Assembly: GCF_002161675.1 (NCBI RefSeq)
Contig: NZ_NFIH01000020.1
Location: forward strand, 1-49,426
Direction of reading: 5' to 3'
From: Pseudoflavonifractor sp. An44
GTDB taxonomy: Bacteria; Bacillota; Clostridia; Oscillospirales; Oscillospiraceae
DNA: 49,426 nucleotides
The notes under the pieces are model-generated. The model worked only from the letters and a program-made list of their open reading frames with translations. It made no database searches and was not told the origin of the DNA. The translations under genes were made by a program, and so were the position numbers. Shown piece by piece: positions 18,032 to 24,455 of the stretch. The first letter of the stretch is position 1. Each line of letters opens with the position of its first letter.

Positions 18032-18053
18032 GGGGGTATAGCTCAGCTGGGAG
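18032..18053 (+). pseudogene. 5' fragment of tRNA-Ala (attL side)
   Basis: The first 22 nt of tRNA-Ala (GGGGGTATAGCTCAGCTGGGAG), then an abrupt change to island sequence starting CCCGGTTGAAGCGG. It ends with GGAG at 18050-18053, which is also the first four bases of the 3' fragment at 24398. The fragment plus 24402-24455 gives exactly 76 nt, the full tRNA. Confidence 0.92.
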
Positions 18054-18093
18054 CCCGGTTGAAGCGGTTACACACCCCTCAGAAAAAATGAAT

Positions 18094-18221
18094 AAGAAAT
18101 ACTCAGCACACCCTTTTATTTGGGGGTATAGCTCAGCTGGGAGAGCGCTTGAATGGCATTCAAGAGGTCAGCGGTTCGATCCCGCTTATCTCCACCAAAC
18201 TTTGGTGTGCTGAGTATTCTT
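18094..18221. repeat. Inverted repeat enclosing the island tRNA-Ala
   Basis: AAGAAATACTCAGCACACC (18094-18112) and GGTGTGCTGAGTATTCTT (18204-18221) are complementary apart from one extra A. They flank the intact tRNA at 18122-18197, 9 nt before it and 6 nt after it. The transcript could form a long stem around the tRNA. Confidence 0.85.
18122..18197 (+). tRNA. tRNA-Ala (anticodon GGC), carried at the island left end
   Basis: Complete 76-nt tRNA with encoded CCA, identical to the tRNA at 17503-17578. It lies inside the island, 68 bp past the attL junction, in the same direction as the interrupted chromosomal tRNA. It can therefore be transcribed from the chromosomal promoter at 17959-17987. 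A terminator follows at 18226. Confidence 0.96.
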
Positions 18222-18225
18222 AGAT

Positions 18226-18253
18226 AACCTGCTTCATACGAAGCAGGTTTTTT
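18226..18253 (+). terminator. Terminator after island tRNA-Ala
   Basis: AACCTGCTT / AAGCAGGTT with a 6-nt loop and TTTTTT tail. Confidence 0.9.
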
Positions 18254-18344
18254 CATGCCTGTTCCTGAACTGCTCCCCGTCAAGAGGACAGTGAAAAAAT
18301 ATAAAGTTTTCCCGGCCAGTAGCCTATGTGCTGCTGGCCGCTTT

Positions 18345-20994: not shown

Positions 20995-21076
20995 CAAATA
21001 GGATGATTTAGTTAGCAATACAGAAAAGCATTGTGTTCTGCAACTGATTGGATAAGGAGCAGAAAGGAGGACGGTC

Positions 21077-21859
21077 ATGATTCCACTTGCTTTTACAGAG
21101 CATACCATCTCTTCAAAGATGGTTCTTACAATTATTGATATCGATGATATTACTGAACCAATCAAGGAAGTTCTTGATAAAAACTTTGTCTTGATCTGTG
21201 AAGGCAATTCAGGATCAGATTTGGCTACCGTTAAGACCCATGTGAAGAATTTATTTTCTACCAAACAACAAGATTGGATTATGGGAGCCACGGCCGAATT
21301 TTTTGTTCATCTGTATATTCGACTAACTGGTTATAAACAAGAATGCTTATTTTTAAATTTGGAAGAGAACTCAATAAAAAAGGGGTTTGACGGATATTAT
21401 TCCAAAAATAACATCGAATGGCTAATGGAAAGCAAGGCTGGATCGATAGAATCAAAAGACATATCATATTCGGGAAAAGTTACATTGGCTATGAGTGATC
21501 TTTCCGCAAAGATTTCAGGCCGCGACAAAAGCGGAAAAAGAGGACTTCCCAATAATCCCTGGAGAGAGGCTTATGCGCATGCAAGCCAGTATGACGTTGG
21601 TACTGCAAAGGAAATTCGTAAAAACATTAAAAAGCTTTCTGACGACTTTACCAATGGGAAGTTTCGTTCGATTGAAGAATTTAACACTATGCCCTGTGGA
21701 ACGATTTTTTTGTCGGGAGTTTGGAAACAACCCAATCATGACAGTATATTGAAAGATATTGAAAGCATAGCGGATAAGTTAAAGGGCGAGAAAGTTCATG
21801 TGATCTGCGTAACGCATCGTTCAACAGACATCTTCATGCGCTATATTGGCTTGAGGTAG
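21077..21859 (+). CDS. hamA: HamA-like nuclease effector of Hachiman (DUF1837)
   Basis: 260-residue protein of the HamA C-terminal/DUF1837 family, the proposed DNA-degrading effector of Hachiman anti-phage defence. A PD-(D/E)xK-type active site is visible: Glu74 in GATAEFFVHLY, Asp105 in KGFDGYY, and Glu118-x-Lys120 in WLMESKAG. The start at 21077 follows AAAGGAGG. hamB begins 6 bp after the stop, so they form one operon; in characterised systems HamA is held in check by the HamB helicase. Base composition is far more AT-rich than the surrounding chromosome, indicating transfer. Assignment rests on the motif set and the hamB neighbour; an HMM search for the HamA family would confirm. Confidence 0.85.
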   Translation: MIPLAFTEHTISSKMVLTIIDIDDITEPIKEVLDKNFVLICEGNSGSDLATVKTHVKNLFSTKQQDWIMGATAEFFVHLYIRLTGYKQECLFLNLEENSIKKGFDGYYSKNNIEWLMESKAGSIESKDISYSGKVTLAMSDLSAKISGRDKSGKRGLPNNPWREAYAHASQYDVGTAKEIRKNIKKLSDDFTNGKFRSIEEFNTMPCGTIFLSGVWKQPNHDSILKDIESIADKLKGEKVHVICVTHRSTDIFMRYIGLR

Positions 21860-21865
21860 AGTAAT

Positions 21866-24286
21866 ATGGATGATAACAAACTAATTCAAGATCTAAAAGC
21901 ACTTCCGTTTTATCACTCGGCAATGGAGAAGTTAACCGTTAGCCCAGATCGGCTCGATGAAAACGAGAAGTCCTTTCTATTGACCGTAGCCATAATCCTT
22001 TTGAGAAAATATGAAAGAGATCGTCGGCTTACATCATTTGTTGAACTTGGTTATTCCATCATCTTAAAATATTCTTTATTTTTTGGCGATTATGCCCCTC
22101 TATATGATTTTAGTGTCAACATTGGATACTATCCAATAGCCCAAGCTATTACTGAATTTAAGCAGCTACAATTCTCTGATATCGCAGCATCAGTTATTCC
22201 CACTCTAATTAATGAAGGGTTCAAACATGACAATCTTATAGAAACATTTAGCCAAAAGCATACTCGAGATGAGATTCTTAACAGCAAAAGTAAAGATATA
22301 TGCTATGTTGCCCCCACTTCTTTTGGTAAAAGCAGTATAATACTGGACCATATTGCTACGAAATGGTCCGTTTATAAACGTTTTGCCATTATTGTACCTA
22401 CAAAATCTTTGCTCATGCAGACATATAGAGCTGTTCGGGATAGAAATTTTGATGCGAAAATAATCATACATGATGAAATGTACAACCATGAGGAGCGCTT
22501 TATTGCTGTATTAACACAGGAACGAGCTTTGAGGCTTCTTGATAAACATGACATATTTTTCGATTGCCTGTATATTGACGAAGCGCACCGCCTCTTGGAA
22601 CGAGATTCTCGTTCAATATTACTTTCCAGACTTATAAAACTTAATCGAAAAAGATGGCCAAATTCGGAAATAGTTTATCTATCACCTCTGATAACGAATG
22701 TAGATAATTTGAAAATGGACACCTCTCAAGAGATTTTTGAACAACGCATTGCATTTAATATTAAAGAACCAGAATATTTCGAATATTGTACAAGTGGTGT
22801 TGTTCAGAAATACAATCGCTTTATTGACGAGTTTTTTCCTGTTGATATTTATATTAATATGTTTGCATACATTACTCTTAATGCCACAAAAAAGACATTT
22901 TGCTATTTGTATGCCCCCAGAAAAATCGAACAATTCGCAGATGAACTCGCACAAATAAAAGATCAGATTGAAATAAGTGACACGTTAAATACCGTGATTA
23001 CAAATCTTAAAGAATATGTACACTCCGATTTCTACGCAATCGAATATCTGAAAAAAGGCATAATCTATTTACATGGGAAAATGCCGGACAATGTAAAAGA
23101 ATATTTGGAATATCAGTATTCACAAATTCCGGAACTTCAATATATTATTGCGAACAAAGTCATTTTGGAGGGGGTAAATCTTCCAATTAATTCACTTTTT
23201 ATTCTTAGCGGAAGGAACTTGCATGAAAAAGATCTTATTAATTTGATTGGCCGTGTAAACAGGTTAGATCAGGTTTTTTCATCTCCCCCAAAACTGGAAA
23301 TGCTTATACCGCAAATACATTTTGTTAATAGCGATAAGTATAACCGAAAGCATGGAAATTTAGGAAACAAAATGCGCTTATTAAAGAGCTCAGTATTTGC
23401 GGATAAGGTAAAGAACCCTATTCTCACAAATTTTGATTTTGATGAAGCTGCGGAAAAAGGTGGCATTGAAAAATGCAAGGAGATTATCGAGAGCGAAAAC
23501 ACCTTTTTCTCAATAGCTGATGACCCTGTGCAAGAGTTAAAGCGTAAAATGATTTCTCTTGGAATGAATTCTATTTTTTCTCTTTCGGATGAACTATGCC
23601 AGATGATTTTAAATAGAATCGACCGAGCTAAAAAGTATCCACGATTACATGAAATTCACTTTTTAGATCGACTCCGTTCTATTTTTATTATTGATTTTTC
23701 TGCAAGTATTGTTGATGAAGAATTTGCTCGATTAATAAACGATAAGGCCATTGCTTACTATAAAATGTTTTTTGATAGCAGAAAACAATCGCTTAATGAG
23801 AATATAGCTCGAGAAATTCGATACTTTAAGCAAAGAATTGCAAACGGTGACAGTTTAATGTATATCGGAGAAAGCTATGGTGAATTACCGTATCAAGCAA
23901 CTGGCCGTAGTGCTTACCGAAATGTTTATATTGATTTATCCAAGAAGTCAGATCGTCAATTAGCTAACATTGCTATTGTTAAACAAAAAATGGAAGAAGA
24001 TTTCGTGAGCTTTAAACTTCGAATGTTTTTTCAGCTAATGTTTGACTATTCCATCCTTGACGAAGAAGAGTATCATCGAATCTTGTATGGCACAACAGAT
24101 AAGAAGAAAATTTTTCTTGTAAAAACCGGACTGACAATCAATCTAATAAATCGGTTAGAAAGGGATGACCAATTAAAGAATATCACCTTTAACAAATATG
24201 GAAATTTAATTACAAATGAACTGTTTGCAGATTATCTACGGCATGCTGATGATTTTTATCGCTTTGAATTAAGTCGTTTCCTCTAA
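21866..24286 (+). CDS. hamB: HamB-like superfamily 2 helicase of Hachiman
   Basis: 806-residue DExH helicase partner of HamA. Walker A is APTSFGKS at residues 149-156, motif II DEAH at 238-241 (YIDEAHRLLE), motif III is near YLSPL, motif V is ANKVILEGVNLPINSLFI, and motif VI is NLIGRVNRLDQ with the arginine finger. The C-terminal third is helical and family-specific. In known Hachiman systems HamB senses aberrant or exposed DNA and releases HamA nuclease, killing or arresting the infected cell. The intact motifs suggest a functional system. The gene is strongly AT-rich and is followed, after 110 bp, by the island right end. Confidence 0.87.
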   Translation: MDDNKLIQDLKALPFYHSAMEKLTVSPDRLDENEKSFLLTVAIILLRKYERDRRLTSFVELGYSIILKYSLFFGDYAPLYDFSVNIGYYPIAQAITEFKQLQFSDIAASVIPTLINEGFKHDNLIETFSQKHTRDEILNSKSKDICYVAPTSFGKSSIILDHIATKWSVYKRFAIIVPTKSLLMQTYRAVRDRNFDAKIIIHDEMYNHEERFIAVLTQERALRLLDKHDIFFDCLYIDEAHRLLERDSRSILLSRLIKLNRKRWPNSEIVYLSPLITNVDNLKMDTSQEIFEQRIAFNIKEPEYFEYCTSGVVQKYNRFIDEFFPVDIYINMFAYITLNATKKTFCYLYAPRKIEQFADELAQIKDQIEISDTLNTVITNLKEYVHSDFYAIEYLKKGIIYLHGKMPDNVKEYLEYQYSQIPELQYIIANKVILEGVNLPINSLFILSGRNLHEKDLINLIGRVNRLDQVFSSPPKLEMLIPQIHFVNSDKYNRKHGNLGNKMRLLKSSVFADKVKNPILTNFDFDEAAEKGGIEKCKEIIESENTFFSIADDPVQELKRKMISLGMNSIFSLSDELCQMILNRIDRAKKYPRLHEIHFLDRLRSIFIIDFSASIVDEEFARLINDKAIAYYKMFFDSRKQSLNENIAREIRYFKQRIANGDSLMYIGESYGELPYQATGRSAYRNVYIDLSKKSDRQLANIAIVKQKMEEDFVSFKLRMFFQLMFDYSILDEEEYHRILYGTTDKKKIFLVKTGLTINLINRLERDDQLKNITFNKYGNLITNELFADYLRHADDFYRFELSRFL

Positions 24287-24397
24287 TGTGTAGTGAAAGA
24301 CTTGTCTATAACAGCGTTTTGCCGTTCTTTCTGTTGTTTGCGTATTGAAGCGCACCTTCTAGGCCCTGGTTACGGGGGTATGTAACCGATGGGCTCA

Positions 24398-24455
24398 GGA
24401 GAGCGCTTGAATGGCATTCAAGAGGTCAGCGGTTCGATCCCGCTTATCTCCACCA
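24398..24455 (+). pseudogene. 3' fragment of tRNA-Ala (attR side)
   Basis: 58 nt running from GGAG in the D-arm to the CCA end of tRNA-Ala, identical to the corresponding part of the intact copies. Upstream sequence is island DNA (GTAACCGATGGGCTCA). It keeps the native terminator but has lost its promoter and 5' part, so it is not a functional tRNA by itself. Confidence 0.92.

Follow-up and report, generated by a model that had tools for sequence, protein, structure and literature searches.

A tRNA-Ala gene divided in the D-arm

The window analyzed here, a stretch of 49,426 nucleotides (nt) from Pseudoflavonifractor sp. An44 (contig NZ_NFIH01000020.1), contains a transfer RNA (tRNA) gene for alanine, tRNA-Ala(GGC), that is interrupted by a putative mobile element of 6,348 bp (positions 18054-24401). 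A 22-nt 5' fragment of the gene (18032-18053, forward strand) precedes the insert and a 54-nt 3' fragment (24402-24455, forward strand) follows it; letter by letter, the two add up to the complete 76-nt host tRNA. The insert also carries, on the same strand, an intact tRNA-Ala(GGC) recognized by ARAGORN at 18122-18197, which is identical to the rejoined host gene and lies behind a gap of 68 nt (18054-18121); we call it the cargo tRNA. The motif GGAG occurs at both joints and is the sole identity shared there, with no long direct repeat at the window's joints that would rebuild the 3' end of the tRNA. Integration thus destroyed the host gene and rebuilt none, as ARAGORN finds in the window only the cargo tRNA and an intact, identical tRNA-Ala(GGC) at 17503-17578 (reverse strand), a second host copy that diverges from the split gene and has a promoter-like site of its own.

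The signals of the split gene are now distributed over both sides of the insert. A promoter-like site at 17959-17987 (forward strand, TTGACT-17-TATACT, matching 10 of 12 consensus bases) now precedes both the 5' fragment and the cargo tRNA, and the 3' fragment, cut off from that promoter, is followed by the original host terminator, a hairpin and then T, at 24456-24490 (forward strand). An empty site exists in a genome of the same genus, G015 (the prefixes G and L denote genomes compared and loci extracted, respectively), where a matching promoter, an uninterrupted tRNA, and a matching hairpin at the same position follow one another. Its right flank is 92% identical to that of the window over 2,045 bp, and its left flank is 77% identical over 577 aligned positions. 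The same divergent pair of tRNA-Ala genes is present at loci L017, L018, L022, and L025, and is uninterrupted in L017, L022, and L025.

Much of this anatomy had been proposed in a sequence-only reading of the same DNA, which described the two pieces with GGAG at each joint, the identical copy 68 bp inside the left end, the promoter and terminator of the split gene, and an element that cuts within the gene and supplies a substitute behind the orphaned promoter. The first two points are exact, the promoter and terminator recur in G015, and the cut with its substitution is borne out by that empty site and by the element shared among seven genomes and the pairing of host halves described below. 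No island-free relative with both the fragment and the intact tRNA appeared among the four loci with the divergent pair. The sequence-only reading did not include the divergent twin, a recombinase remnant and an IS3-family insertion within the insert, or the inverted repeat and terminator that accompany the cargo tRNA.

Attachment sites center on a single dinucleotide

The attP sites of large serine recombinases are about 50 bp long and roughly palindromic around a central dinucleotide that is shared with attB. In the window, the right half-site of attP is situated inside attL at 18054-18078 (forward strand), immediately after the 5' fragment, which itself ends in AG. It forms a palindrome with the left half-site at 24374-24399, and this, together with the core AG at 24400-24401, makes up the right joint, attR (24374-24401, forward strand). 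The rebuilt attP is 65% symmetric about AG, the best of 21 offsets (shuffle p = 0.0005). Among 11 pairs of element ends that were initially chosen, AG (tRNA positions 21-22) was the best center in all 11, with a mean symmetry of 0.65, as opposed to 0.20-0.34 at other offsets, and shuffle p < 0.01 in 10 of them; six of the seven left-out pairs that were added later, An250 among these six, also center on AG. The pairs from MH27-2, Yanshouia, F. gallinarum, An250, G014, G006, and G022 join ends on different contigs, and the single left end of Neglectibacter was paired with both of its right ends. Since the rebuilt attP is palindromic about AG, we infer that the crossover occurred at 18052-18053 and 24400-24401. 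At two other loci, L180 and L181, the 5' fragment upstream of the cargo tRNA runs about 9 tRNA bases further until it reaches the half-site of the element, which would fit a displaced or converted joint.

A family of elements with tRNA-Ala at one end

The arrangement is widespread among relatives. Among 42 genomes searched within the genus, nine, including that of the window, have a 5' fragment abutting an element end, and in eight an intact tRNA lies behind the fragment (G018 was judged by eye, and G024 lacks the intact copy). Within the taxonomic family, the recombinase was detected at E <= 1e-80 in 64 of 400 genomes. Across the order, a pattern of a fragment, 65-95 nt, and an intact tRNA was matched in 13 of 394 genomes, from six families, although not all of these matches were inspected singly.

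Starting from the recombinase, we examined the best 80 of at least 549 relatives as named loci. A convergent tRNA-Ala lies within 4.2 kb of the recombinase gene in 70 of these (66 with anticodon GGC and four with CGC), and at least one 5' fragment occurs within 330 nt upstream of the tRNA in 61 of the 70; under a stricter, shorter-range rule, the corresponding counts are 63 of 80 and 43 of 80. Chance occurrence of the 5' fragments is ruled out by a shuffled control (0.3% per 330 nt) and by reversing the order-wide pattern, which gave no match among the rows displayed.

In ten genomes of the family, the recombinase has no adjacent convergent tRNA-Ala, and a search with the D-arm revealed a fragment followed by an intact tRNA-Ala in nine of them; no D-arm match was obtained in the tenth, G050. 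In three of the nine (G306, G389, and G372), the recombinase is near the 3' half and both ends lie on a single contig, approximately 107, 115, and 47 kb apart, respectively. The An196 element encodes a relaxase and VirD4-like and VirB4-like proteins of the CD1115 and CD1110 families, and that of G306 encodes a MobP3 relaxase; by this gene content, at least these two elements are conjugative or mobilizable. The G306 element also encodes (L311:6067-9063) a 998-amino-acid (aa) protein that fuses a MobP3/MobL relaxase domain with many Sel1 repeats. Among 29 loci on viral contigs, the fetched stretch contains a tRNA of any kind in 10. One locus (L241, among eight displayed), from an IMG/VR contig filed as viral, has three different 5' fragments in a row and then a tRNA-Ala adjoining a related recombinase.

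The cargo tRNA travels independently of the host gene

In the window, the cargo tRNA equals the host gene; its independence is apparent where one element occupies different hosts. One such element was recovered from seven named genomes, with hosts including Lachnoclostridium An196, Angelakisella, Negativibacillus, and Anaeromassilibacillus An250, and its first 1,950 bp are 99.95-100% identical (one mismatch, in one copy). All seven copies contain the same cargo tRNA, and they follow six kinds of host 5' fragment, which identifies the tRNA as cargo. The An196 and Negativibacillus copies are 99.98% identical over the 17,970 bp compared, and the 3' half, 24.5 kb away in both, is not the same in the two hosts and equals the cargo tRNA in neither. 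The conjugative-type element at loci L167 to L173 is almost identical across several gut bacterial genera, and this points to its very recent transfer between them; more generally, near-identical elements in different genera imply that the element has spread recently.

Where both halves of a host gene depart from the cargo, the halves fit one another. In four hosts (MH27-2, Negativibacillus, An250, and An196), the two host acceptor strands form 7 of 7 standard pairs; against the cargo strands, those of the first three form 4 to 7 of 7 and those of An196 form 7, so that only three of the four hosts discriminate, on at least one side. ARAGORN accepts seven rejoined host genes, a result that is weak by itself. 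In 20 of 61 named loci, the fragment closest to the cargo does not match the cargo's own initial 22 nt. In a pattern search of 15 genomes, several of them drafts, the cargo is the only full-length tRNA-Ala(GGC) matched in eight; An196 belongs to these eight, and the window's genome does not.

Nested stacks

Several genomes contain more than one 5' fragment in front of a single intact tRNA-Ala. Two fragments in a row occur in G016, G039, G024, and G023 (where the outer one is worn) and three in G055 and G114, and among the named loci, at least two fragments are present in 16 of 61 and three in one. The most complete stack is in G114, in which a single contig contains three 5' fragments, one intact tRNA behind them, and two 3' halves with attR. 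There, the leader arm before the third fragment (GCACTTTCCC) has its counterpart 40 kb away, in the trailer that follows a 3' half (GGGAAAGTGC), an arrangement that would result if the cargo tRNA of an earlier element had been split by another.

A second kind of insertion may be present in G023 (L034/L035; G023:C3 167,535-193,046), where about 25 kb separate the intact tRNA-Ala from a 3' piece of 47 nt with its break at the anticodon loop. By eye, this stretch includes tyrosine-recombinase-like reading frames, and a different type of integrase may there have used the replacement tRNA as its target. At two further loci, L036 and L037 (G026:C17 and G029:C3), tRNA-Ala genes stand in tandem, the first wrapped in a leader-trailer inverted repeat and the second without a full encoded CCA.

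Signals around the cargo tRNA

The cargo tRNA of the window has no good promoter of its own: the best score in the spacer is 8 of 12, against 10 for the host site. We scanned 38 of the 43 loci that satisfy the stricter rule (those with repeated spacers or short flanks were dropped). A site matching 9 or more of 12 bases stands ahead of the outermost fragment in 30 of these loci, and one locus has such a site in its spacer; the upstream stretch of 100 nt is usually longer than the spacer, and shuffled sequences score 7.8 and 7.3, respectively. Promoter-like sites before the cargo are thus rare; elements that have their own are found at L034, L038, and L188.

The window's cargo tRNA is enclosed by a predicted stem, with a leader arm at 18094-18113 (forward strand, containing AATACTCAGCACACC) and a trailer arm at 18204-18221 (forward strand, containing GGTGTGCTGAGTATT), whose duplex has a calculated energy of -29.4 kcal/mol. 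An element-borne hairpin terminator follows at 18226-18254 (forward strand), as judged from sequence and fold. Across 51 distinct loci (reduced by similarity from 67, with L158, L165, L182, L184, L198, L060, and L061 excluded beforehand), leaders pair with their own trailers at a mean of -18.1 kcal/mol and with mismatched trailers at -9.2 kcal/mol, and none of 10,000 permutations was as low. The stem sequences themselves differ between elements, as expected from compensatory change. Over 46 GGC loci with a fragment and distinct spacers, the predicted pairing of the cargo acceptor stem is 0.31, versus 0.026 with shuffled leaders, and is higher with the real leader in 41.

The two AG centers, that of attL and that within the cargo tRNA, are separated by a median of 89 bp (38 loci). 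We suspect that, at such a short distance, the element's own attP and the cargo target are prevented from recombining with each other.

Proposed mechanism and its alternatives

The explanation that we favor, and hold with considerable confidence, is that a serine-recombinase element splits tRNA-Ala in the D-arm and brings a substitute that comes to lie behind the captured host promoter. Such an element would integrate by attP x attB recombination across AG at tRNA positions 21-22, destroying the host gene and leaving the promoter with 22 nt on its left and 54 nt with the terminator on its right. The complete tRNA-Ala, carried mostly 55-141 bp inside the left end, usually promoterless and with its own terminator, should then be transcribed from the host promoter. 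The same transcript would include the dead 22-nt fragment, which could compete for the 3' acceptor strand of the substitute, and the folding predictions suggest that the leader-trailer stem probably shields the cargo tRNA from it. Because the substitute again holds the target, further elements could insert there, giving rise to nested stacks on one promoter.

Several observations weigh against parts of this account. The host of the window keeps an intact twin tRNA-Ala(GGC), so that a need for the substitute does not follow there, and the pattern used to count gene copies misses some host genes, such as the expected 3' half in Angelakisella. By the rule used, nine of the 70 named loci with a tRNA lack a 5' fragment, and 10 of the 80 named loci show no tRNA; in six of these, the contig ends less than 700 bp from the recombinase, and in the other four (L186, L212, L230, and L232), 6 kb of sequence are available. 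The cargo is immediately preceded by a promoter-like site in L182, L184, and L198. With respect to the stem, the best-ranked trailer of 28 of the 51 cargo leaders is not their own, free-standing tRNA-Ala genes also average -12.3 kcal/mol of leader-trailer pairing (n = 15), and at many loci almost no acceptor pairing is predicted, whether the leader is real or shuffled. The symmetry of att sites is weak in F. gallinarum (p = 0.12) and An250 (p = 0.035), and the L044/L033 pair of G022 does not center on AG (although the same left end fits another right end, L046). Finally, the third 3' half in G114 is truncated, and Neglectibacter is not easily accommodated, with two 3' halves for the single 5' fragment on its tRNA strand.

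The cargo tRNA could instead serve mainly as a landing pad, that is, a renewed attB at which newcomers dock without harm to host or resident, the replacement of the tRNA being secondary. The recreated gene does hold the target sequence again, and the 16 of 61 loci with at least two fragments are what a landing pad would produce; such a site would, however, require no terminator, no leader-trailer stem, and no placement on the promoter side, and the cargo is the only full-length tRNA-Ala(GGC) matched in eight of 15 genomes. We regard this possibility as improbable. Less probable again is that the cargo is an ordinary mobile-element tRNA that aids translation or counters tRNA-cutting defenses, its position being incidental. 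Such roles for phage tRNAs are raised in the discussion of PMC10865867, but all 70 of the recombinase-adjacent tRNAs are tRNA-Ala (66 GGC and four CGC), the host 3' halves displayed beside attR also have the GGC anticodon loop, and the cargo lies close to attL, on the promoter side, and usually without a promoter.

Another view, which we consider very unlikely, is that the intact tRNA was not brought as cargo but was left behind by an earlier integration or arose through local duplication of the host gene, with two successive events at one hotspot. The window alone cannot decide this point, its cargo being equal to the host gene, and successive integrations at the same locus occur elsewhere. 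The leftover view is contradicted by identical elements with different host halves, in which one and the same tRNA arrives with the element although the hosts have different tRNAs of their own. Also against it are the 20 of 61 named loci where the nearest fragment disagrees with the 22 nt that open the cargo, and the convergent tRNA-Ala that accompanies the recombinase in 70 of the 80 named relatives. The sequence-only reading had offered two successive integrations as an alternative; they are not needed for the window, and stacking does occur at other loci. An assembly artifact at the repeated tRNA has a negligible chance of being correct: some draft contigs of the genus do end at this repeat, but G306 and G389, each assembled as a single contig, contain both ends and rule it out, and the two ends also share a large contig in G114, An196, and Negativibacillus.

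If substitution by cargo tRNA is correct, it explains why gut Clostridia contain tRNA fragments and tandem copies of tRNA-Ala, which could otherwise be taken for decay or duplication, and the order of fragments in a stack may record the integration history of a locus. Serine recombinases cannot rebuild a split gene, because their sites share only a short core, and bringing a substitute would be how they can still target a tRNA gene. The leader-trailer stem would be a concrete RNA part of this strategy. A broader proposition, toward which we lean with some reserve, is that serine-recombinase conjugative elements of gut Clostridia (mostly of Oscillospiraceae type) make the host live on an element-borne tRNA, with nested stacks that retain one working gene, amounting to addiction without a toxin. 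A cell that lost the innermost cargo tRNA would then be penalized, and if hosts do depend on the tRNA of the element, a mobile element with defense genes would be hard to lose.

Comparison with known systems

Classical tRNA islands and prophages use tyrosine integrases, target a tRNA gene, and rebuild part of it through a long block of identity. At the joints of the window, by contrast, only GGAG is common and both halves are incomplete; a classical 3'-end tRNA island is ruled out, as there is no identity block.

The nearest parallel is the tRNA-dependent lysogeny of actinobacteriophages such as Fionnbharth, LeBron, and Gaia (PMC10865867), in which, as in the window, the host tRNA gene is destroyed and the element carries an intact tRNA. 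The phages use tyrosine integrases, and their attB overlaps tRNA-Lys, -Ile2, or -Leu around the anticodon and the 3' part of the gene (PMC10865867); the elements considered here have a serine recombinase and a putative AG crossover in the D-arm of tRNA-Ala. The tRNA of Fionnbharth has its own strong promoter (PMC10865867), whereas the cargo here is usually promoterless behind a captured host promoter and is enclosed by a leader-trailer stem, and at least two of the elements (An196 and G306) are conjugative or mobilizable rather than temperate phages. We noticed no mention of stacks, such as those nested here, in the portions of PMC10865867 considered; its authors expect tRNA-dependent lysogeny elsewhere and mention prophage Lj965 of Lactobacillus johnsonii.

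The Dehalococcoides ssrA islands also employ a serine recombinase, are situated downstream of ssrA, and are bounded by a 20-bp ssrA repeat (PMC3146451). They resemble the present elements in the reverse-strand serine recombinase gene adjoining attL, in targeting an RNA gene, and in forming serial islands. They differ in that ssrA is presumably left intact and that no replacement gene is mentioned in the portions of PMC3146451 considered. In the tandem accretion of integrative and conjugative elements and integrative mobilizable elements (a term used in PMC3146451), several elements likewise pile up at one site, but the piles described here look nested, each element residing inside the cargo tRNA of the previous one. 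Among the papers listed by literature searches, as judged from titles and abstract openings, none describes a serine recombinase together with a substitute that lacks a promoter, a cut in the D-arm, or stacks of nested elements.

Other contents of the insert

Reading rightward, the insert consists of the attP half-site, the cargo tRNA within its inverted repeat, the terminator, an IS3-family insertion sequence, a recombinase remnant, a helix-turn-helix (HTH) gene, a 260-aa gene, and HamB. The remnant (20017-20547, reverse strand, with its stop at 20017) is the C-terminal part of a large serine recombinase that has lost its catalytic domain, and its segment 20029-20547 shares 78% identity with a recombinase of 535 aa at L030 (residues 360-532). 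That protein is full-length, with the domain set of large serine recombinases (Resolvase, Recombinase, and zinc ribbon), and its gene follows the cargo tRNA in convergent orientation; at L031, the start of a similar gene was seen by eye before the contig ends. Comparison of the remnant with PDB sequences gave no informative match, and among phages and plasmids, it matched five unannotated fecal phage records and one plasmid, all at less than 60% identity. With the catalytic domain lost and the IS3-type insertion present, the window element reads as a degenerate, immobilized 6.3-kb derivative of a serine-recombinase element.

Downstream of the remnant, a small Cro/C1-type HTH protein (20794-20994, forward strand; Pfam HTH_26) precedes the 260-aa candidate HamA (21077-21859, forward strand) and HamB (21866-24286, forward strand), a DEAD-box helicase of the Hachiman-type defense system (PADLOC, best E = 1.2e-46). 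The presence of this helicase means that the defense system aboard is probably Hachiman. Candidate HamA, assigned by its position before HamB, has no family match at E <= 0.001 (a weak CARF/PDDEXK match has E = 0.005) and a fold model with a mean predicted local distance difference test score of 35.9, which was not used; homologues are present in two of 295 genomes, its own included. The designation of the insert as a defense island in the sequence-only reading thus stands for HamB and is unproven for HamA. Among six open reading frames (ORFs) of the insert, none belongs to a phage family in Pfam.

The IS3-family insertion sequence (approximate ends 18271-19986, reverse strand; ORFs 18345-19235 and 19232-19927; NF033516, Pfam rve and HTH) lies between the cargo terminator and the recombinase gene and has imperfect terminal inverted repeats that agree at 20 of the first 30 bases. 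Its end (window positions 18263-18300) recurs at 97% identity elsewhere in the genome of the window (G000), at C31:177-214, C49:45065-45099, and C13:177-211, two of these near the start of a contig, so that several copies of the element are probably present.

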